This document shows, in pieces, positions 4,563 through 11,608 of a DNA stretch of 34,940 nucleotides. The notes beneath the pieces were generated by a model. That model was not told where the DNA came from and ran no database searches. It saw only the letters and a list, made by a program, of their open reading frames with translations. The position numbers and the translations under genes are program-made. This DNA comes from Chloroflexota bacterium (GTDB lineage Bacteria; Chloroflexota; Anaerolineae; Anaerolineales; Anaerolineaceae), in the NCBI GenBank assembly GCA_012522475.1, contig JAAYKH010000056.1, positions 1 to 34,940 of the forward strand, given 5' to 3'. Each line of letters opens with the position of its first letter. Within the stretch, counting starts at the first letter, position 1.

Positions 4563-6758
4563 TTAATTCTTGGTAACGGCCACTTTCCTCTCAAAGCGCA
4601 GGGCACGCAGACCGTTCAACGTCACCAGCAGCGAAACGCCCATATCCGCTAATACGGCCAGCCATAGGGGTGTGTAACCAAAAAGCGCCAGTATTGCCAC
4701 CAGCAGCTTGCTGCCCAGGCTGAAGCTGATGTTGGCTTTGATCAACCGGTTGGCAAAAGCCGACAGCCGGATGGCAAAGGGTAGTTTGTGAATGTCATCC
4801 GCCATCAGCACCACATCGGCTGTTTCCATAGCCTGGGTGCTGCCAACCCCACCCATGGCGATCCCCAGGTCTGCGGCAGCCAGCGCGGGAGCATCGTTGA
4901 TCCCATCGCCCACCATAGCAATCGGCCCATGCTCCGCTCGCAGTACTTCCACAATCTGCTGCTTATCATCGGGCAATAAACCCGCGTGCACGGTATCAAT
5001 ACCGACGGCAGCACCGATCGTCCTGGCAACGGTGGGGTTGTCACCGGTCAGCAAGATGGTTTTCTTTCCCATCTCCCTCAGCGCCTCAATCACGCCTGGC
5101 GATTCCGGTCGCAGAGCGTCGGCTACGGCGATAAATCCGCGCACTCGCTCGCCATCGCATAAAAGCATGGCGGTTTTCCCTTCGGTTTCCGCTTGATGTA
5201 CCCAGGTTTCTACCAGGGGCGGAACCTGGTGTTCCTCGAAAAATAAACGTCGACTGCCAATCGTCATCTTCTGCCCGTTAATCAGCCCTTCCAGCCCGCG
5301 GCCGCCGCGGGCGACCAGGTTTTCTGCTGGTGGGTAACACTCCGTCAATCCGCGCGCTTCGGCTTCCCTGGTGATGGCTTGCGCCAGGGGGTGGGTGCTG
5401 TGGCGCTCCAGGGCATACGCCAGAGCGAGCATATCATTACAGGGCTCGCAATTGGTTTCTCCCAGGCAGTCCAGGTCCTTGCTGTCCACCACCTGCGGTT
5501 CGCCGCGGGTGAGGGTGCCGGTTTTATCAAAGGCAAAAGCCCGGATTTTGGATAGAGCCTCCAGGAAGAGACCGCCTTTGAATAAAACGCCCTCCCGGGC
5601 GGCCCGGGTCAGGCCGGCCACCATCGTTACCGGTGTGGAGATCACCAGCGCACAGGGGCAGCCGATGATCAGCAGCGCTAATGCCCGATAGAGCCAGCCG
5701 CGAGTTCCGTCGAGTGGGTTTAGGAAGGGTGCGCCCAGCAACAGGGGCGGGATGGTCGCCACCAGCAGAGCCAGTACCACCATTGATGGGGTGTAATAAT
5801 GGGCAAAGCGATCGATAAACTTCTGACTGCGCGCCTGCCGTGACTGCGCCTGCGTGACCATTTCGACGATGCGGTGCAGCGAACTATCGCCCACCAGCCG
5901 GGTAACCTGGATCACCAAGCGACCCGCCCCGTTAACCGTGCCGCTGAAAACCTCATCATTTGGTGTCTTCCAGATCGGGATGCTCTCACCGGTGATCGGC
6001 GCCTGGTCCACGTCGCTATGCCCCTCCAGGACAGTACCATCTATGGGGATACGCTCGCCCGGGCTGACCACGATCACATCACCAGGGCTCAATGCCTCAA
6101 CCGGTACCAGCTGCTCCTGTTCAGCATCCCGCCGAAGCGCGTGTGCCGGGGATAATGCCTTCAATTGAGCAATTGCGCTGCGCGCCCGTTCGTTGGTGAA
6201 GCCTTCCAGCGCCTCTGCCAGGTCGAACAGCAGGATCAGGCTGGCCGCCTCAGCATATTGGCCAATGGCGACCGCTCCCAAACCTGCTAGGGTCATCAAA
6301 AAATTGATGTTCAAGGAGCGATTGACCCATAAGTTAACCAGGCCGCTGCGCGCAATCGGCCACCCGGCTAAAACCAACACTCCAATTTGCAACGTAACGA
6401 CAGTCCAGCCTGGGGCGTTCAATCGGTTGGCTGCGAAGGATAGCAGAATTACCACGCCTGCAATTAAGGCCAGTCGGGTTTCCTTTTGCTGTGCCAGATA
6501 ACGCCAGAACCCCACCAGCACGTTTGGCTCGGCCGCGGGCGGCAGACTGGCAGATTGACCATCATCCACGCTATAACCCAACGTGGTGACCAGCTTTCGT
6601 AATTGCGTTTCATCGACATCGCCGCGCACCATGAGCGTGCCATCAAAAAACTGCAGTTCAGCCGCTTCTACCCCCGGCGCGGCGGTCAGCGTGGCTTCCA
6701 GCCCCCGGGCACAATCTAAACAATCTAAACCCGTAATTTTCAATCTTGTTTCAGTCAT
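4563..6758 (-). CDS. P1B-2 type Zn2+/Cd2+/Pb2+ exporting ATPase (ZntA/CadA-like)
   Basis: This heavy-metal P-type ATPase exports divalent soft metals. The frame opens from TTG 6776 (737 residues), but ATG 6758 is a better start because the HMA domain follows at once. Numbering from TTG: the HMA metal-binding motif GLDCLDC (Cys19, Cys22), phosphatase-loop TGES (263), CPC in the metal-binding helix (373-375), the phosphorylated DKTGTLT (Asp417), the HP dipeptide (462-463) and GDGINDAP (623-630). Lys690 and Asp711 in the last two helices sit where ZntA has Lys693 and Asp714, the signature of P1B-2 pumps rather than copper pumps. A cysteine pair, NCEPC (442-446), in the nucleotide domain is unusual. 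The gene directly follows its probable repressor, whose stop overlaps the TTG region. Confidence 0.94.
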   Translation of the reverse strand: MTETRLKITGLDCLDCARGLEATLTAAPGVEAAELQFFDGTLMVRGDVDETQLRKLVTTLGYSVDDGQSASLPPAAEPNVLVGFWRYLAQQKETRLALIAGVVILLSFAANRLNAPGWTVVTLQIGVLVLAGWPIARSGLVNLWVNRSLNINFLMTLAGLGAVAIGQYAEAASLILLFDLAEALEGFTNERARSAIAQLKALSPAHALRRDAEQEQLVPVEALSPGDVIVVSPGERIPIDGTVLEGHSDVDQAPITGESIPIWKTPNDEVFSGTVNGAGRLVIQVTRLVGDSSLHRIVEMVTQAQSRQARSQKFIDRFAHYYTPSMVVLALLVATIPPLLLGAPFLNPLDGTRGWLYRALALLIIGCPCALVISTPVTMVAGLTRAAREGVLFKGGLFLEALSKIRAFAFDKTGTLTRGEPQVVDSKDLDCLGETNCEPCNDMLALAYALERHSTHPLAQAITREAEARGLTECYPPAENLVARGGRGLEGLINGQKMTIGSRRLFFEEHQVPPLVETWVHQAETEGKTAMLLCDGERVRGFIAVADALRPESPGVIEALREMGKKTILLTGDNPTVARTIGAAVGIDTVHAGLLPDDKQQIVEVLRAEHGPIAMVGDGINDAPALAAADLGIAMGGVGSTQAMETADVVLMADDIHKLPFAIRLSAFANRLIKANISFSLGSKLLVAILALFGYTPLWLAVLADMGVSLLVTLNGLRALRFERKVAVTKN

Positions 6759-6772
6759 TTTACAGCTTTGCC

Positions 6773-7102
6773 TCAATCATGCAAAATATGTTCAAAGGTG
6801 CGTTGTAAGATGTCTCGCACATGGTCATCTGCCAGATCGTAATAAACCTCGCGGCCCTGCTTGCGATAACGTACAATGTTCAGGTTGCGTAAGAGCCGTA
6901 ACTGGTGGGATACTGCACTTTGTGAAACAACCAAATGTTCGGCTATTTCCCCCACGCTGAGAGTTTCAGTAAACAACAGCGCCAGGATTTTCAGGCGCGT
7001 AGGGTCGGCCAGGATTTTAAAACTTTCTGCCATGGTGAGAAACATCGCTTCCGAGGTGGCCTCGTGGATTAATTGTGAGAAAGACTCCGTGGTAACAAGC
7101 AT
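6773..7102 (-). CDS. ArsR/SmtB-family metal-sensing repressor, CzrA-type
   Basis: This is a small winged-helix repressor. ATG 7102 is preferred over ATG 7114 because GGAG lies six bases before it and the longer start would run into the operator. The recognition helix region contains VVSQSAVSHQLRLLRNLNIV. The C-terminal helix carries D-x-H-(x10)-H-x-x-H in DDHVRDILQRTFEHILH, exactly the spacing of the Asp84/His86/His97/His100 alpha-5 zinc site of CzrA. The cysteine-rich alpha-3 site of CadC/SmtB is absent (TETLSVGEIAEH instead), so the sensor should respond to Zn2+ or Co2+ rather than Cd2+/Pb2+. The stop overlaps the downstream ATPase reading frame, so the two are translationally coupled. Confidence 0.93.
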   Translation of the reverse strand: MLVTTESFSQLIHEATSEAMFLTMAESFKILADPTRLKILALLFTETLSVGEIAEHLVVSQSAVSHQLRLLRNLNIVRYRKQGREVYYDLADDHVRDILQRTFEHILHD

Positions 7103-7116
7103 AATTAACTCCATTG

Positions 7117-7311: not shown

Positions 7312-8289
7312 TTAAAAAATAGAATCTGCGTATTTCATCCTTTCCATAACCCAACAACCAAAGTAAGCCTTTATTTCCTGTTGTCTGCCGTACAGTGTGA
7401 AATCATCCAAAAGCTCACAAAGATACTGAAAAAACGTATGATAACAACAAAATGCGAGACGTTCCGGGCGCAACTTATATGAGATATTGCCTTGTTTAAG
7501 AGCGTTACTGAAGGCCTTCAATACCCAGTCATAACAGCACATGACCCATGCGTCGCGTTCAAGGGGAGCGTACATAACTTCATCCCAATCAACGATGTAA
7601 TCATTTTCGTTGCCGATAAGCAGGTTTCCCCCTGCGTCACCATGTGTGAAGTAAAATTGCGGTTTATCCTTTTGGCAGATTTCTGAAAAATACGATAGCC
7701 GCGAAGCATAATGTCTAAGAACTTCCTGGTGCTGTTCAAAGATTGCAAGAATGGTGTTGCTTTCTTTGCTCGGAGGCGCCATTTTAAGTTGCTCCCACTT
7801 TGCAAAAAATTTTGATGACCTCTCGTCTGAAAATTCTAACGAAGGAATTTCAAACCCTTGTTTTGTTAGTGGGTATATTTTACTCAGCATTTTATATTCA
7901 CGAAATTTTGTTTCATCAGTTTCAATGTTTTTGCCGTTAACCCAAACAAAAACGCCTAGAACTGCTGAGTTGAAAGTTGAAAATAAATTGTCTGCCCTTG
8001 TTTTAACTAACTTGCTGATAAAATCTATTCCATTCGCGCATAGATATTCCACGACCTCTAGACTGTTACGGTATTTTGTTTGGTGTTGGGGAGAATAATC
8101 TAACTTGAGAAAATAGCTATCGTTTTCTGTGTCTATGCACCATGTTTCACCGTAATAACCTTGCTTCGCAGGAACGATAGAAATAGCCGCGATACCATAT
8201 TGCTCGTAAATAAAATCTACAAGGTGGGTCATGTACTGACTGTCTCGTATAATCTGGTTCATTACGAATTGTCTTTCTGATGTCGACAT
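7312..8289 (-). CDS. Aminoglycoside-phosphotransferase/choline-kinase fold protein
   Basis: The frame opens at TTG 8301; ATG 8289 or ATG 8262 are likelier starts, none with a strong SD. Numbered from the TTG, the kinase-fold small-molecule phosphotransferase has an N-lobe with a YFLKLD lysine strand (about 63-68), the catalytic loop HGDAGGNLL (His220, Asp222, Asn226) and the Mg-binding VDWDE (Asp238, Asp240). Substrate could be an aminoglycoside, another antibiotic, a sugar or an amino alcohol; the sequence does not say, and resistance should not be assumed. The gene is markedly more AT-rich than its neighbours, with many AAA, TTT and ATT codons. It lies beside a fragment of another gene, which suggests horizontal acquisition. 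No operon partner is evident. Confidence 0.8.
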   Translation of the reverse strand: MSTSERQFVMNQIIRDSQYMTHLVDFIYEQYGIAAISIVPAKQGYYGETWCIDTENDSYFLKLDYSPQHQTKYRNSLEVVEYLCANGIDFISKLVKTRADNLFSTFNSAVLGVFVWVNGKNIETDETKFREYKMLSKIYPLTKQGFEIPSLEFSDERSSKFFAKWEQLKMAPPSKESNTILAIFEQHQEVLRHYASRLSYFSEICQKDKPQFYFTHGDAGGNLLIGNENDYIVDWDEVMYAPLERDAWVMCCYDWVLKAFSNALKQGNISYKLRPERLAFCCYHTFFQYLCELLDDFTLYGRQQEIKAYFGCWVMERMKYADSIF

Positions 8290-8511
8290 CAACAATACCA
8301 ATCAATTAATAGTTCTTGTGCTTTTTTTGTTCTACAACTGTATTAGAACATAGTTTACATTTACCCTATCTTTACAACCCTATAGGTGTTATTTTACATA
8401 GCCACTCAACGTTACTTTCATTTTCTGACTTGTCGATATGTTTCCTCAAACGCAAAAACATGCTTTTATACCAAGTCATTATTTCGGATGTCATTTTGAG
8501 ACGATTTATTT

Positions 8512-8580: not shown

Positions 8581-8829
8581 GGTTCTCTCCTGGATAATTG
8601 CGATGATGGAACAATTATATAATGTCACGCTCGTCAAAACGGCATAGAAAATAGAGGTTGTGCCCAAGATTGATGTAGATAAGTAACCATTTTTGTGCTG
8701 TAATCCTCATAATTTTATTTTAGTGAATGGCGCGTTGTAGGGGGTGAATGCTTTTTGTTGCTTGATAGAAACAGATGTATAATCAATGCGTGTTTGAAAG
8801 TTGCATTCCCGATCAGCACCCGGGTGGTG
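8581..8829. other. Gene-free stretch
   Basis: No convincing gene is present between the methyltransferase remnant and the leader promoter. A TATAAT hexamer lies at 8778-8783 and a perfect 10-bp palindrome CACCCGGGTG near 8817-8826; neither has a clear partner feature. Base composition is AT-rich up to about 8790. Confidence 0.4.
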
Positions 8830-8835
8830 TATAAT
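8830..8835 (+). promoter_or_regulatory. Candidate -10 box for the leader and metal-transport operon
   Basis: A perfect TATAAT lies about 240 nt before the first start codon and just upstream of the structured leader. No good -35 box is found at 16-18 nt spacing, so the call rests on the hexamer and its position. Confidence 0.4.
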
Positions 8836-8841
8836 AAACAC

Positions 8842-9069
8842 ATCAAGATCAGTGAGTGTATGAACTTTTTACAATGATAGAAAACAGTGAATCAAGCACG
8901 TTAGACAGTGATAGTACCAGCGGCGACCAACGCCGGGTACATATACGGATCGCCAGATGCGAATGATTTAGGCTGTGCTCACCTCTTAATTACAGCAAGA
9001 GCCCGGTTTGCATCGGGCTCTTGTTTTTATCCGATCGCTGATTAAGAAATTTCGGAAAAGAGGTGCACA
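8842..9069 (+). ncRNA. Structured 5' leader, candidate metal-responsive attenuator or riboswitch
   Basis: The leader has several nested pairings. AGCAC (8895-8899) can close on GTGCT (8975-8979) as a basal stem. Inside it, GTACC/GGTAC (8914-8918, 8936-8940) and CGGCG/CGCCG (8921-8925, 8931-8935) form a strong hairpin interrupted only by an AG bulge. CACCTCTT (8980-8987) is a perfect 8-base complement of the ribosome-binding site AAGAGGTG (9058-9065). Its CTCTT part can instead pair with AAGAG (8997-9001), the 5' arm of the terminator. I could not match it to the M-box, yybP-ykoY or other metal riboswitch consensus sequences I know. Downstream genes encode an MgtE-N/CBS protein and an NRAMP transporter, so a divalent metal is the natural ligand guess. 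Confidence 0.55.
8997..9028 (+). terminator. Intrinsic terminator inside the leader
   Basis: AAGAGCCCG (8997-9005) pairs perfectly with CGGGCTCTT (9014-9022) around an 8-base loop, followed by GTTTTT. This strong rho-independent terminator sits 42 nt upstream of the start codon at 9070. Because no gene ends just before it, it is best explained as an attenuator of the downstream operon. Confidence 0.85.
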
Positions 9070-10329
9070 ATGATTTATGTCAGCCAATTGATTAACCAAT
9101 ATATTTGGGATGGCTATGGGGGCGTGATTGGACGCTTGGAAGATATCCTTGTCAATGGAACCGAGAAAAACTTGCCGCCGATTGTGGCGCTGGCTGTTAA
9201 GAAAAACCCCCTTGGGGTTGAACTGATTCCCGCTAGCCAGATTGCCAGCCTGTGGCCCAGTATGACGTTAAGAGTTGGTGTGGACCGCATCAAGCCCTAC
9301 CAACCGAGTGGGCATGAATTACTGCTTTTGGAACGGGTGCTGGATCAACAAATTGTGGATACCGAGGGAAAACGATTGGTACGGGTCAACGATCTGCAGA
9401 TTGCCAGGGCAGGCGATCAATTTATCCTCACCGGCGTAGATGTGAGCGGGGTGGGCCTCTTGCGCCGCCTGGGGCTGGAAAGAATCGGGCGTTCCATTGG
9501 AAATGTCCTCAAACGGCCGGCTCAAACTGCGGTTATCCCGTGGGAATTTGTCGCTTCGATTGAGCGTGATGACCCCCTGCGTCTGAGCGTCTCGCAGAAC
9601 AAACTGGTGAAAATGCCACCGGCTGACATTGCCGCCATCGTGGATGAACTGGACCGCCACACTTCGACAGCCCTGCTGGAGGGTTTTGACAATCAAGCCC
9701 TGGCAGACACTCTGGAAGAATCCTCCCCGGAACTGCAGATGAGCATCCTTTCGAGTATGCCGCCGGAACGGGCAGCCGATATCCTAGAGGAAATGGACCC
9801 GGATGAGGCAGCTGACCTGCTGGCCGATTTACCCGAAAAGACCAGTGAAGCCTTACTGGAGTTGATGGAATACGAGGATGCCGAGGAAGTGCGCACCTTG
9901 CTGACCTTCCCCGAGGATGCCGCCGGGGGCATTATGACCACTGAGTTTGCCTATGTTCCTGAAGACCTGAATGCCGGCGAAGCACTCGATTATTTACGCA
10001 CCTCTGAAGATGCGCAGGATGATGAAGGGATGCACTATGTTCATATCCTGGATGATGACCGACGCTTGCGCGGGGTGGTCACCCTGCGCGATCTGGTGAT
10101 GGCCAACCCAAACAGCGACTTGGAACAATGGGTGATTGCCGAAGAAGTAACTGTCGACCCTATGACGCCGCAAAAAGAAGTCGCGTACCTGATTGCCAAG
10201 TATGATTTGGCCTCGATCCCGGTGATCGATCCAGGGACCAGTGTCATGCTGGGGATTGTAACCGTTGACGATGCCATCGATATCGTCCTGCCTACGGCTT
10301 GGAAGAAACGCCTGCCCCGATTATTCTAA
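9070..10329 (+). CDS. PRC-barrel / MgtE-N / tandem CBS domain protein without membrane domain
   Basis: This is a 419-residue soluble protein with start ATG 9070 behind GAGGTG. Residues about 1-165 form two PRC-barrel-like beta units (GRLEDILVNG; GKRLVRVNDLQIA). Residues about 190-290 match the MgtE intracellular N domain, an acidic helical superhelix with repeats such as MPPERAADILEEMDPDEAADLLADLPE. Residues about 295-415 are two CBS motifs (FAYVPEDL...HYVHILDDDRRLRGVVTLRDL and ASIPVIDPGTSVMLGIVTVDDA). The channel-forming MgtE membrane domain is absent. In MgtE, the N and CBS domains sense Mg2+ and gate the pore. Here they probably regulate the NRAMP-family transporter encoded 22 nt downstream, an inference from gene order. 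Confidence 0.85.
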   Translation: MIYVSQLINQYIWDGYGGVIGRLEDILVNGTEKNLPPIVALAVKKNPLGVELIPASQIASLWPSMTLRVGVDRIKPYQPSGHELLLLERVLDQQIVDTEGKRLVRVNDLQIARAGDQFILTGVDVSGVGLLRRLGLERIGRSIGNVLKRPAQTAVIPWEFVASIERDDPLRLSVSQNKLVKMPPADIAAIVDELDRHTSTALLEGFDNQALADTLEESSPELQMSILSSMPPERAADILEEMDPDEAADLLADLPEKTSEALLELMEYEDAEEVRTLLTFPEDAAGGIMTTEFAYVPEDLNAGEALDYLRTSEDAQDDEGMHYVHILDDDRRLRGVVTLRDLVMANPNSDLEQWVIAEEVTVDPMTPQKEVAYLIAKYDLASIPVIDPGTSVMLGIVTVDDAIDIVLPTAWKKRLPRLF

Positions 10330-10351: not shown

Positions 10352-11608
10352 ATGCGGAAGAAATTCAAAGCTCCCCTGTGGTTACAAAAGATTGGCGTTT
10401 ATCTGGCTGTTCTCGGGCCCGGATTGATCACTGCCAGCGCTGATAACGACGCCCCGGGCATTGCCACCTATTCCATGGCTGGCTCGATTTATAATTATAA
10501 ATTTCTTTTCATCATCATGGCCGTGACTGTCGGCGAGGTCGTTATCCAGGAGATTGCCGCCCGTATGGGTGTGGTGACCGGCAAAGGAACAGCGGACCTG
10601 ATTCGTGAACGCTTCGGGGTGAAGATCACGGCCTTTACCATGTTTTCGCTGCTGCTGGCCAACCTGGGCACCACGGTTGCACAAATTGCGGGGGTGGCTG
10701 CCTCGGCAGAGCTGTTTGGTATCAGCCGCTATATTGCTGCACCGCTCGCAGCCATATTGGTGGGCCTGACCGTACTGCGCGGCTCTTATAAGCATATCGA
10801 GAAAATACTGTTAGCCCTGTCGCTGGTTGCCATCAGCTATATCATCACCGTGTTCATGATGAAACCGGACTGGGGAGAGGTGCTTCATGGCATGTTTGTC
10901 CCCCAATTCGAGCTGGAGCCAACCTTTATCCTGGCGGTATTGGCCACCATCGGGACGACCATCACCCCCTGGGGTATATTTTTCATGCAGTCCTCCGTGG
11001 CAGATAAAGGTCTGGCCCTCAAGGACTACCCTTATACAAAAATTGATGTAACTTTTGGCGCGGCCTGGGGCAACGTTATCTCGGCTTTTGTGGTCATTTC
11101 CACAGCGGTCACCCTATACGTGGCCGGCATCCCGGTGGAGACCGCAGAAGATGCCGCCCTGGCACAGGCGCCGCTGGCAGGAAATTCTGCCAAGATGTTG
11201 TTCTCGGCCGGGTTGTTGGGTGCCTCCCTGCTGGCACTTTCGGTACTACCGCTCTCGACCACCTATGCCTTCTGTGAGGCCTTTGGGTTTGAGCGTGGCT
11301 TGAACCGCCGCGTTAGGGAAGCCCCCGCGTTTTACGGCATTTTTGCAGGCATCATTGGCATCAGCGTGCTGATTGTGCTCATACCGGGCATTCCCTTGTT
11401 CCCGATTATGTGGCTTTCGCAAACATTGAACGCATTTTTCCTACCGGTGCTGCTATTTTTGGTATTGAAGCTTTCCAGCAGTGAAAAATTAATGGGCTCA
11501 TGGAAGAACAGCCGCCTTCAAAACATCCTGGCAGCTGGGTTGACGGTGTTCATTAGCCTGATAACGCTGACGTTATTTGTGACCATGTTTTGGAACCCAG
11601 CACTCTGA
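10352..11608 (+). CDS. NRAMP/SLC11-family divalent metal transporter with non-canonical metal site
   Basis: ATG 10352 is set by a perfect AGGAGG at 10340-10345; the longer open frame upstream overlaps the previous gene and is not coding. The 418-residue protein has about eleven hydrophobic helices in the NRAMP fold. The TM1 segment GPGLITASADNDAPG has DNDA (31-34) where manganese/iron transporters have DPGN. TM6 reads TPWG (205-208) where they have MPH, so the metal-binding methionine is missing. Such substitutions are known from NRAMP-related magnesium transporters (NRMTs). With an MgtE-N/CBS protein in the same operon, Mg2+ is the favoured substrate, by inference. A structured leader with a terminator lies upstream of the pair. 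Confidence 0.9.
   Translation: MRKKFKAPLWLQKIGVYLAVLGPGLITASADNDAPGIATYSMAGSIYNYKFLFIIMAVTVGEVVIQEIAARMGVVTGKGTADLIRERFGVKITAFTMFSLLLANLGTTVAQIAGVAASAELFGISRYIAAPLAAILVGLTVLRGSYKHIEKILLALSLVAISYIITVFMMKPDWGEVLHGMFVPQFELEPTFILAVLATIGTTITPWGIFFMQSSVADKGLALKDYPYTKIDVTFGAAWGNVISAFVVISTAVTLYVAGIPVETAEDAALAQAPLAGNSAKMLFSAGLLGASLLALSVLPLSTTYAFCEAFGFERGLNRRVREAPAFYGIFAGIIGISVLIVLIPGIPLFPIMWLSQTLNAFFLPVLLFLVLKLSSSEKLMGSWKNSRLQNILAAGLTVFISLITLTLFVTMFWNPAL

Follow-up and report, generated by a model that had tools for sequence, protein, structure and literature searches.

A putative acidic leader peptide and terminator/antiterminator switch ahead of an MgtE_N-CBS/NRMT operon in Anaerolineaceae

The analyzed window, 34,940 nt of contig JAAYKH010000056.1 from a Chloroflexota bacterium of the family Anaerolineaceae, carries on its forward strand a divalent-metal operon preceded by a structured leader. 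The first structural gene (9070-10329) encodes a cytoplasmic protein with Pfam MgtE_N and CBS domains but without the MgtE transporter domain; its score against TIGR00400 is 177 bits, below the cut-off of 233, and the PRC label given to this product by the first-pass annotation has no Pfam match. The gene that follows (10352-11608) encodes an NRAMP-related transporter with a Pfam Nramp match, for which EleNRMT (7qia) is the best solved match at 343 bits, followed by 10ky (104 bits) and MntH (5kte, 69 bits). The alignment displays the motifs NDAPG and TTITPW, in which Gly replaces the Asn of the Mn2+-type TM1 motif and the TM6 Met is absent; TM1 is shared with EleNRMT, and at the TM6 position Thr stands in place of the Ala of EleNRMT, the roles of these residues being taken from the available text of PMC8806188. 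This protein is predicted to be an NRMT-type transporter, closest to EleNRMT, which is a solved Mg2+ transporter. An NRAMP-type transporter is located downstream in 54 of the 62 related loci, while three lack a transporter despite room for one and five are cut, a count in which some contigs appear twice and two loci contain a gap (1.9 kb in L030 and 0.3 kb in L032). It is the MgtE_N and NRAMP genes of L030 that are separated by 1.9 kb, and L051, L060, and L061 have no NRAMP gene within approximately 1.5 kb. Elsewhere in the window, positions 4563-7114 encode a heavy-metal P-type ATPase, which has immediately upstream, on the minus strand, an ArsR-family regulator that may form a metal efflux pair with it, and positions 7312-8301 on the minus strand encode an APH-family phosphotransferase divergent from the leader.

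The 228-nt leader of the window folds at -71.4 kcal/mol (z -4.81), and none of 200 shuffles was equally stable; the structured leader ahead of the metal operon is genuine. Every piece of the leader named by the first-pass annotation was found in the sequence where it had been placed. The strong internal hairpin is located at 8914-8940 by sequence and fold. The intrinsic terminator (8996-9028) consists of a stem formed by 8996-9005 and 9014-9023, an 8-nt loop, and TTTTT at 9024-9028; its stem is perfect, as described earlier, with a length of 10 bp rather than the 9 bp given at that time. Upstream of the terminator, the anti-SD strand CACCTCTT (8980-8987) is complementary over the claimed eight bases to AAGAGGTG (9058-9065), the Shine-Dalgarno region of the first structural gene. 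A simple terminator scan reported no terminator in the window leader, which may be attributed to a stem-extension rule that consumes the T-tract. No Rfam family matched at its gathering score across the window, and at E values up to 10 the sole match was to the terminator region (BSnc120, 17.7 bits against 114) and none was credible; the M-box covariance model (RF00380) gave no match at the window leader. The earlier description of an unrecognized leader that can adopt alternative structures, precedes a divalent-metal operon, and matches no known metal riboswitch agrees with these results.

The leader appears to be largely coding. A candidate leader-peptide uORF of 30 codons on the forward strand (8874-8966, with the stop codon TGA at 8964-8966), which encodes MIENSESSTLDSDSTSGDQRRVHIRIARCE and escaped the first-pass annotation, includes the internal hairpin at its GDQ codons; a good SD is not found before it in the window (GTATGAACTTTTTACA). 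Homologues of the first gene were gathered from 32 loci of species genomes and from genomes related to that of the window, which yielded 78 distinct leaders in which the start could be placed; 10 loci with no N-terminal match were dropped. A uORF was scored as acidic if it starts with ATG and has at least four Asp/Glu residues and a net charge of -3 within the first 20 residues; this threshold and the leader groups (A, which includes the window, and B to D) were fixed after the sequences had been viewed. Such a uORF is present in 38 of the 40 close homologous leaders and in one of 47 other genes of the same loci used as a control (two of 47 with any start codon). Distant or short-fetched leaders carry it in 9 of 37 cases, some of them probably by chance (L032 and L091); L086-L089 were counted as distant, since only 300 coding bases were fetched, and L017 was excluded from the acidity count owing to a stretch of N, with its readable 3' part kept for the antiterminator and covariation tests. 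The leader peptides of L046 and L087, distant homologues with a terminator-like hairpin in the leader, contain the motif DLDPDP, which comes close to EPDP in MgtL.

The details of the peptide vary and the acidic pattern is common: group A has DSDS..GDQ, group B has SGSDSYPGEDQAQPPS, and group C has the acidic stretches ESESLSADDQPDPAS and GSEPASDDQSGPAS, with Ser abundant beside Asp/Glu. Compared with shuffles leader by leader, acidity is mixed (0.18 for L001 and 0.16 for L028), and weight is therefore placed on conservation and on the gene controls. When alignment columns were permuted and the translations scored, values at least as high as those observed were obtained in 0 of 2000 permutations for group A (six leaders), 2 of 2000 for group C2 (six leaders), and 13 of 2000 for group B (eight leaders), tests that related sequences inflate; a coding signal was absent from group C1, whose seven leaders are near-identical (833 of 2000). 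The group A coding test and alignment A2 do not include L005, the group B coding test does not include L028, and L011 is missing from the all-group tests. The pN/pS ratio over the first 24 codons is 0.47, 0.43, and 0.59 in groups A, B, and C, respectively, and over the remaining codons 0.87, 2.47, and 0.70. Furthermore, GATGCRAA is kept although the reading frame at the 3' end of the uORF differs between the window and L001. This split in pN/pS, together with the kept GATGCRAA, suggests that constraint acts on the 5' part of the uORF at the protein level and on the 3' part more at the RNA level.

The 3' end of the uORF carries a putative antiterminator strand, which may be covered by a ribosome located at the stop codon. 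Its first part, GATGCGAA in the last uORF codons (8956-8963), is the complement of TTTGCATC, located in the terminator loop at 9007-9014, and its second part, AGGCT just past the uORF stop (8970-8974), is complementary to the 5' arm of the terminator according to duplex prediction, with counterparts recognized by eye in L004 (GTCT/AGAC) and L005 (AAGC/GCTT). The antiterminator and covariation tests in group A used 8 of its 11 leaders, with L062, L041, and L042 left out. Covariation in homologous leaders, proposed in the first-pass annotation as a check on its helices, is seen over seven related leaders in the terminator stem, where four of the nine counted pairs changed on both sides and 95% of cells are paired; the anti-SD helix shows no two-sided change in the same number of leaders, with 91% of cells paired and a nonsignificant swap test (11392 of 20000). 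The six pairs of antiterminator part 1 are paired in 97.6% of cells over seven leaders with one two-sided change, and part 2 lies outside this count because MAFFT shifts it in L004. Swapping strands among eight leaders gave pairing as good as their own in 497 of 20000 cases, and in 42 of 720 on the six distinct sequences; covariation of the antiterminator is modest. Shuffled antiterminator strands were as good in 21, 33, 1, and 46 per 1000 cases for the window, L017, L005, and L007, respectively, and were not significant for L001 (55), L002 (274), L003 (75), and L004 (710). The swap test for the internal hairpin gave 13 of 20000 over 34 leaders but only 445 (A), 673 (B), and 847 (C) of 20000 when the groups were taken separately.

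Folding of the nascent RNA predicts how ribosome position could act on this strand. For the window RNA folded up to the terminator loop, 14.0 antiterminator pairs are expected when the strand is free, a value that a ribosome at the stop codon lowers to 0.7, and such a ribosome costs more than half of these pairs in six of seven leaders; L004 does not fit, since its pairs change from 4.5 to 6.2. A ribosome parked at codon 15 lowers the pairs as well (6.5 for the window and 2.8 for L001), so that the model needs the ribosome to drop off rather than to stall there. When the complete window transcript is folded, the predicted terminator probability is 1.00 whether there is no ribosome, one at the stop, or one at codon 15, and the value is approximately 1 in L002 and L007 as well. 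Because the window terminator wins in every full-length fold, the switch would have to be kinetic. The full transcripts of L001 and L003 shift towards the terminator with a ribosome at the stop, from 0.45 to 0.95 and from 0.20 to 0.77, respectively.

Relatives appear to place other structures after the same kind of uORF. A segment such as CATCCGCA is predicted in group B to mask the RBS and the start codon; 2 of 20000 permutations were as good, three displaced controls were null, and two-sided changes occur in three of six pairs of the helix (2 of 500 shuffles). A helix at the group B stop codon is conserved without covariation (7864 of 20000). Group C has a hairpin with the uORF stop in its loop, for which 0 of 20000 permutations were as good and three displaced controls were null; two-sided changes affect five of its six pairs (5 of 500 shuffles) and 14 cells (0 of 500). 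This hairpin was tested in 13 of 17 leaders, the near copies L013, L014, L016, and L027 being left out. Further pair types were not unusual in either the group B RBS helix (142 of 500 shuffles) or the group C stop hairpin (138 of 500). By sequence comparison, the groups have in common an acidic uORF and a regulatory helix at or near its stop, and the output differs. As a separate observation, the SD of the acidic uORF in L050 and L053, GGAGGTGGTC, resembles a copy of the 3' arm of the terminator, GGAGGTGGCC, and L057 is similar by eye; in these leaders, the very act of initiating the uORF might set the terminator.

With respect to distribution, 40 leaders were chosen outside the order, 32 of which had a placeable start and three of these 32 had an acidic ATG uORF; L167, from the same class, and L168, from another class, look plausible and L204 does not. 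A phylum-wide spread, considered as a candidate, is not borne out by three of 32 scored leaders. The acidic-uORF device, as judged from these leaders, occurs densely within part of the window's family and patchily within the order, and is rare beyond.

A link to Mg2+ is suggested by the element that occupies the same position in other genomes. M-box riboswitches control MgtE_N/NrmT operons elsewhere, according to the available text of PMC4072509. In three loci (L132, L133, and L190, in genomes G037, G061, and G724), an M-box occupies the leader slot of the homologous operon. Eight of 101 relatives carry an M-box, among which G037 and G061 have it ahead of the homologous operon, and the leaders of these two contain no acidic uORF as scored here. 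The one M-box match in the window's own genome is on another contig (L135, G000:C29:18108-18264), before an MgtA-like magnesium-translocating P-type ATPase.

Based on these comparisons and folds, the window leader is probably a translation-coupled leader-peptide attenuator, similar to MgtL and MgtQ, with the operon switched on at low Mg2+. Comparison of leaders shows the uORF, the constraint on its coding sequence, the terminator, and, in relatives, covarying helices, and the antiterminator switch is a prediction of folding alone; we infer that Mg2+ is the signal and that it is sensed through ribosome drop-off. In the proposed mechanism, RNA polymerase would start upstream of 8874 and a ribosome would begin to translate the acidic uORF. 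When Mg2+ is ample, the ribosome could reach the stop codon at 8964-8966 and cover the antiterminator strand (8956-8974), upon which the terminator at 8996-9028 may form and transcription would stop; in any message that reads through, the RBS may be masked by CACCTCTT. At low Mg2+, the ribosome may fall off in the acidic stretch SESSTLDSDSTSGD, as in MgtL. The freed antiterminator strand could then pair with the 5' arm and loop of the terminator while these emerge, leading to transcription of the MgtE_N-CBS/NRMT operon. The sensor is likely to be the translating ribosome and not a metal-binding aptamer. The earlier suggestion of a protein-controlled attenuator was in this respect nearer to the uORF evidence than that of a riboswitch: attenuation is retained, and control by a protein gives way to the likely role of the ribosome.

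The same leader-peptide attenuator could respond to something other than Mg2+, such as the charging of Ser or Asp tRNA, a ligand of an arrest peptide, or Mn2+. The richness of the peptides in Ser as well as in Asp/Glu could be read in this way, and according to the available text of PMC4072509 one NrmT relative, from Acidobacterium, can supply Mn2+ and behaved more like a Mn2+ transporter. However, attenuation by an amino acid is, from general knowledge, unexpected for a metal transporter, and M-boxes hold the leader slot in three homologous loci; a signal other than Mg2+ is considered rather unlikely.

How much RNA precedes the uORF bears on whether an aptamer could be accommodated. A candidate -10 element, TATAAT, is located at 8778-8783 on the forward strand, 90 nt before the uORF, a spacing as in L001, L002, and L003, where the only exact TATAAT within 200 nt lies 88-90 nt before the uORF. 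A second candidate, also TATAAT, lies at 8830-8835 on the same strand, 38 nt before the uORF, and fits the leader start of 8842 given in the first-pass annotation, which is less sure in view of the element farther upstream. The 90-nt spacing shared with L001-L003 suggests that the window transcript may start near 8790, with approximately 80 nt ahead of the uORF. Over all groups, 23 of 35 leaders have an exact TATAAT 18-32 nt upstream of the uORF, and none of these 23 belongs to group A; a -10 element with at most one mismatch within 90 nt is present in 32 of 35 leaders but also in 51% of shuffles, and is a weak sign. The proposition that no RNA precedes the uORF was rejected for the window's group, which has the likely -10 element about 90 nt upstream, and holds for groups B-D.

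A metal-binding riboswitch, with the uORF incidental or secondary, would be in keeping with the strong fold of the leader, the covarying helices in relatives, the M-box in the same slot elsewhere, and the approximately 80 nt that may precede the uORF in the window's group, and the argument against an aptamer is weaker in that group because of the likely -10 element 90 nt upstream. Against these points, Rfam gave no match, the part common to the groups is the coding sequence, and each group has covarying helices of its own, which engage the RBS, the terminator, or the stop codon of the uORF. The stretches before the uORF in the window's group align poorly, with 46% mean column identity (62 nt of the window included). 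A riboswitch is therefore regarded as very unlikely, and the new Mg2+- or Mn2+-sensing RNA put forward in the first pass is not favored as the sensor, since the best-conserved part across groups is the coding sequence and groups B-D have little RNA before the uORF. Most improbable is an action of the uORF in trans or via reinitiation with a constitutive terminator, for which the conserved peptide could speak, since the C-terminal part of the peptide is poorly conserved as protein, the uORF stop lies approximately 80-125 nt before the gene in leaders where it was placed, and a terminator or an RBS-masking helix intervenes between the two in groups A and B.

The evidence leans towards a wider view in which Anaerolineae evolved a nascent-peptide Mg2+ sensor independently of enterobacteria, placed in the M-box slot and joined, among close relatives, to interchangeable outputs, namely an intrinsic terminator, RBS masking, and a stop-codon hairpin. 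In the literature so far as it was available, Mg2+ sensing via ribosome destabilization is described for transporter genes of E. coli and Salmonella, and titles and abstract openings of the open-access literature mention no leader peptide in Chloroflexota or before an MgtE_N/NRMT operon. Finding the mechanism again in a different phylum, in a further family of leader peptides and with another transporter type, would make its generality directly testable, and ribosome destabilization by acidic peptides, if this reading is true, would sense Mg2+ in bacteria at large and not be a peculiarity of enterobacteria. The differing platforms in relatives would form a natural series in which the output of the attenuator changes and the sensor is kept. 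Strongly folded, terminator-bearing leaders should be checked for a uORF before they are labeled as riboswitches.

In the trp and ilv leaders, the position of the ribosome on the uORF sets the choice between antiterminator and terminator, and ribosome position is proposed as the switch in the window too. Those attenuators contain a run of codons for the product amino acid, whereas the window leader has acidic residues and precedes a metal transporter. The M-box (ykoK, RF00380) resembles the window device in the MgtE_N/NrmT operons that it controls and in the slot that it takes in L132, L133, and L190; it senses through an aptamer, in contrast to the window leader, which has no RF00380 match and for which the ribosome is the suggested sensor. 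MgtQ, before mgtB of Salmonella, is an acidic uORF that overlaps alternative stem-loops and frees the RBS, and so resembles group B; as described in the available text of PMC8092293, its Asp2 and Glu5 are needed for mgtB translation, and it sits inside the operon and acts at translation. Loss of the MgtQ start codon lowers mgtB, whereas the model for the window predicts that loss of the uORF start would turn the operon on. MgtL, in the mgtA leader of E. coli and Salmonella, is likewise a short uORF with early acidic residues before a Mg2+ transporter gene; in the available text of PMC11282234, completed translation keeps mgtA off, and the acidic EPDP near the start causes ribosome drop-off at low Mg2+ that turns it on, the same logic as that proposed for the window. 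MgtL acts on a Rho-dependent terminator, whereas the window has an intrinsic terminator and a proposed antiterminator that overlaps the uORF stop. The transporter family and the phylum also differ, and the proposed likeness is one of mode of action.
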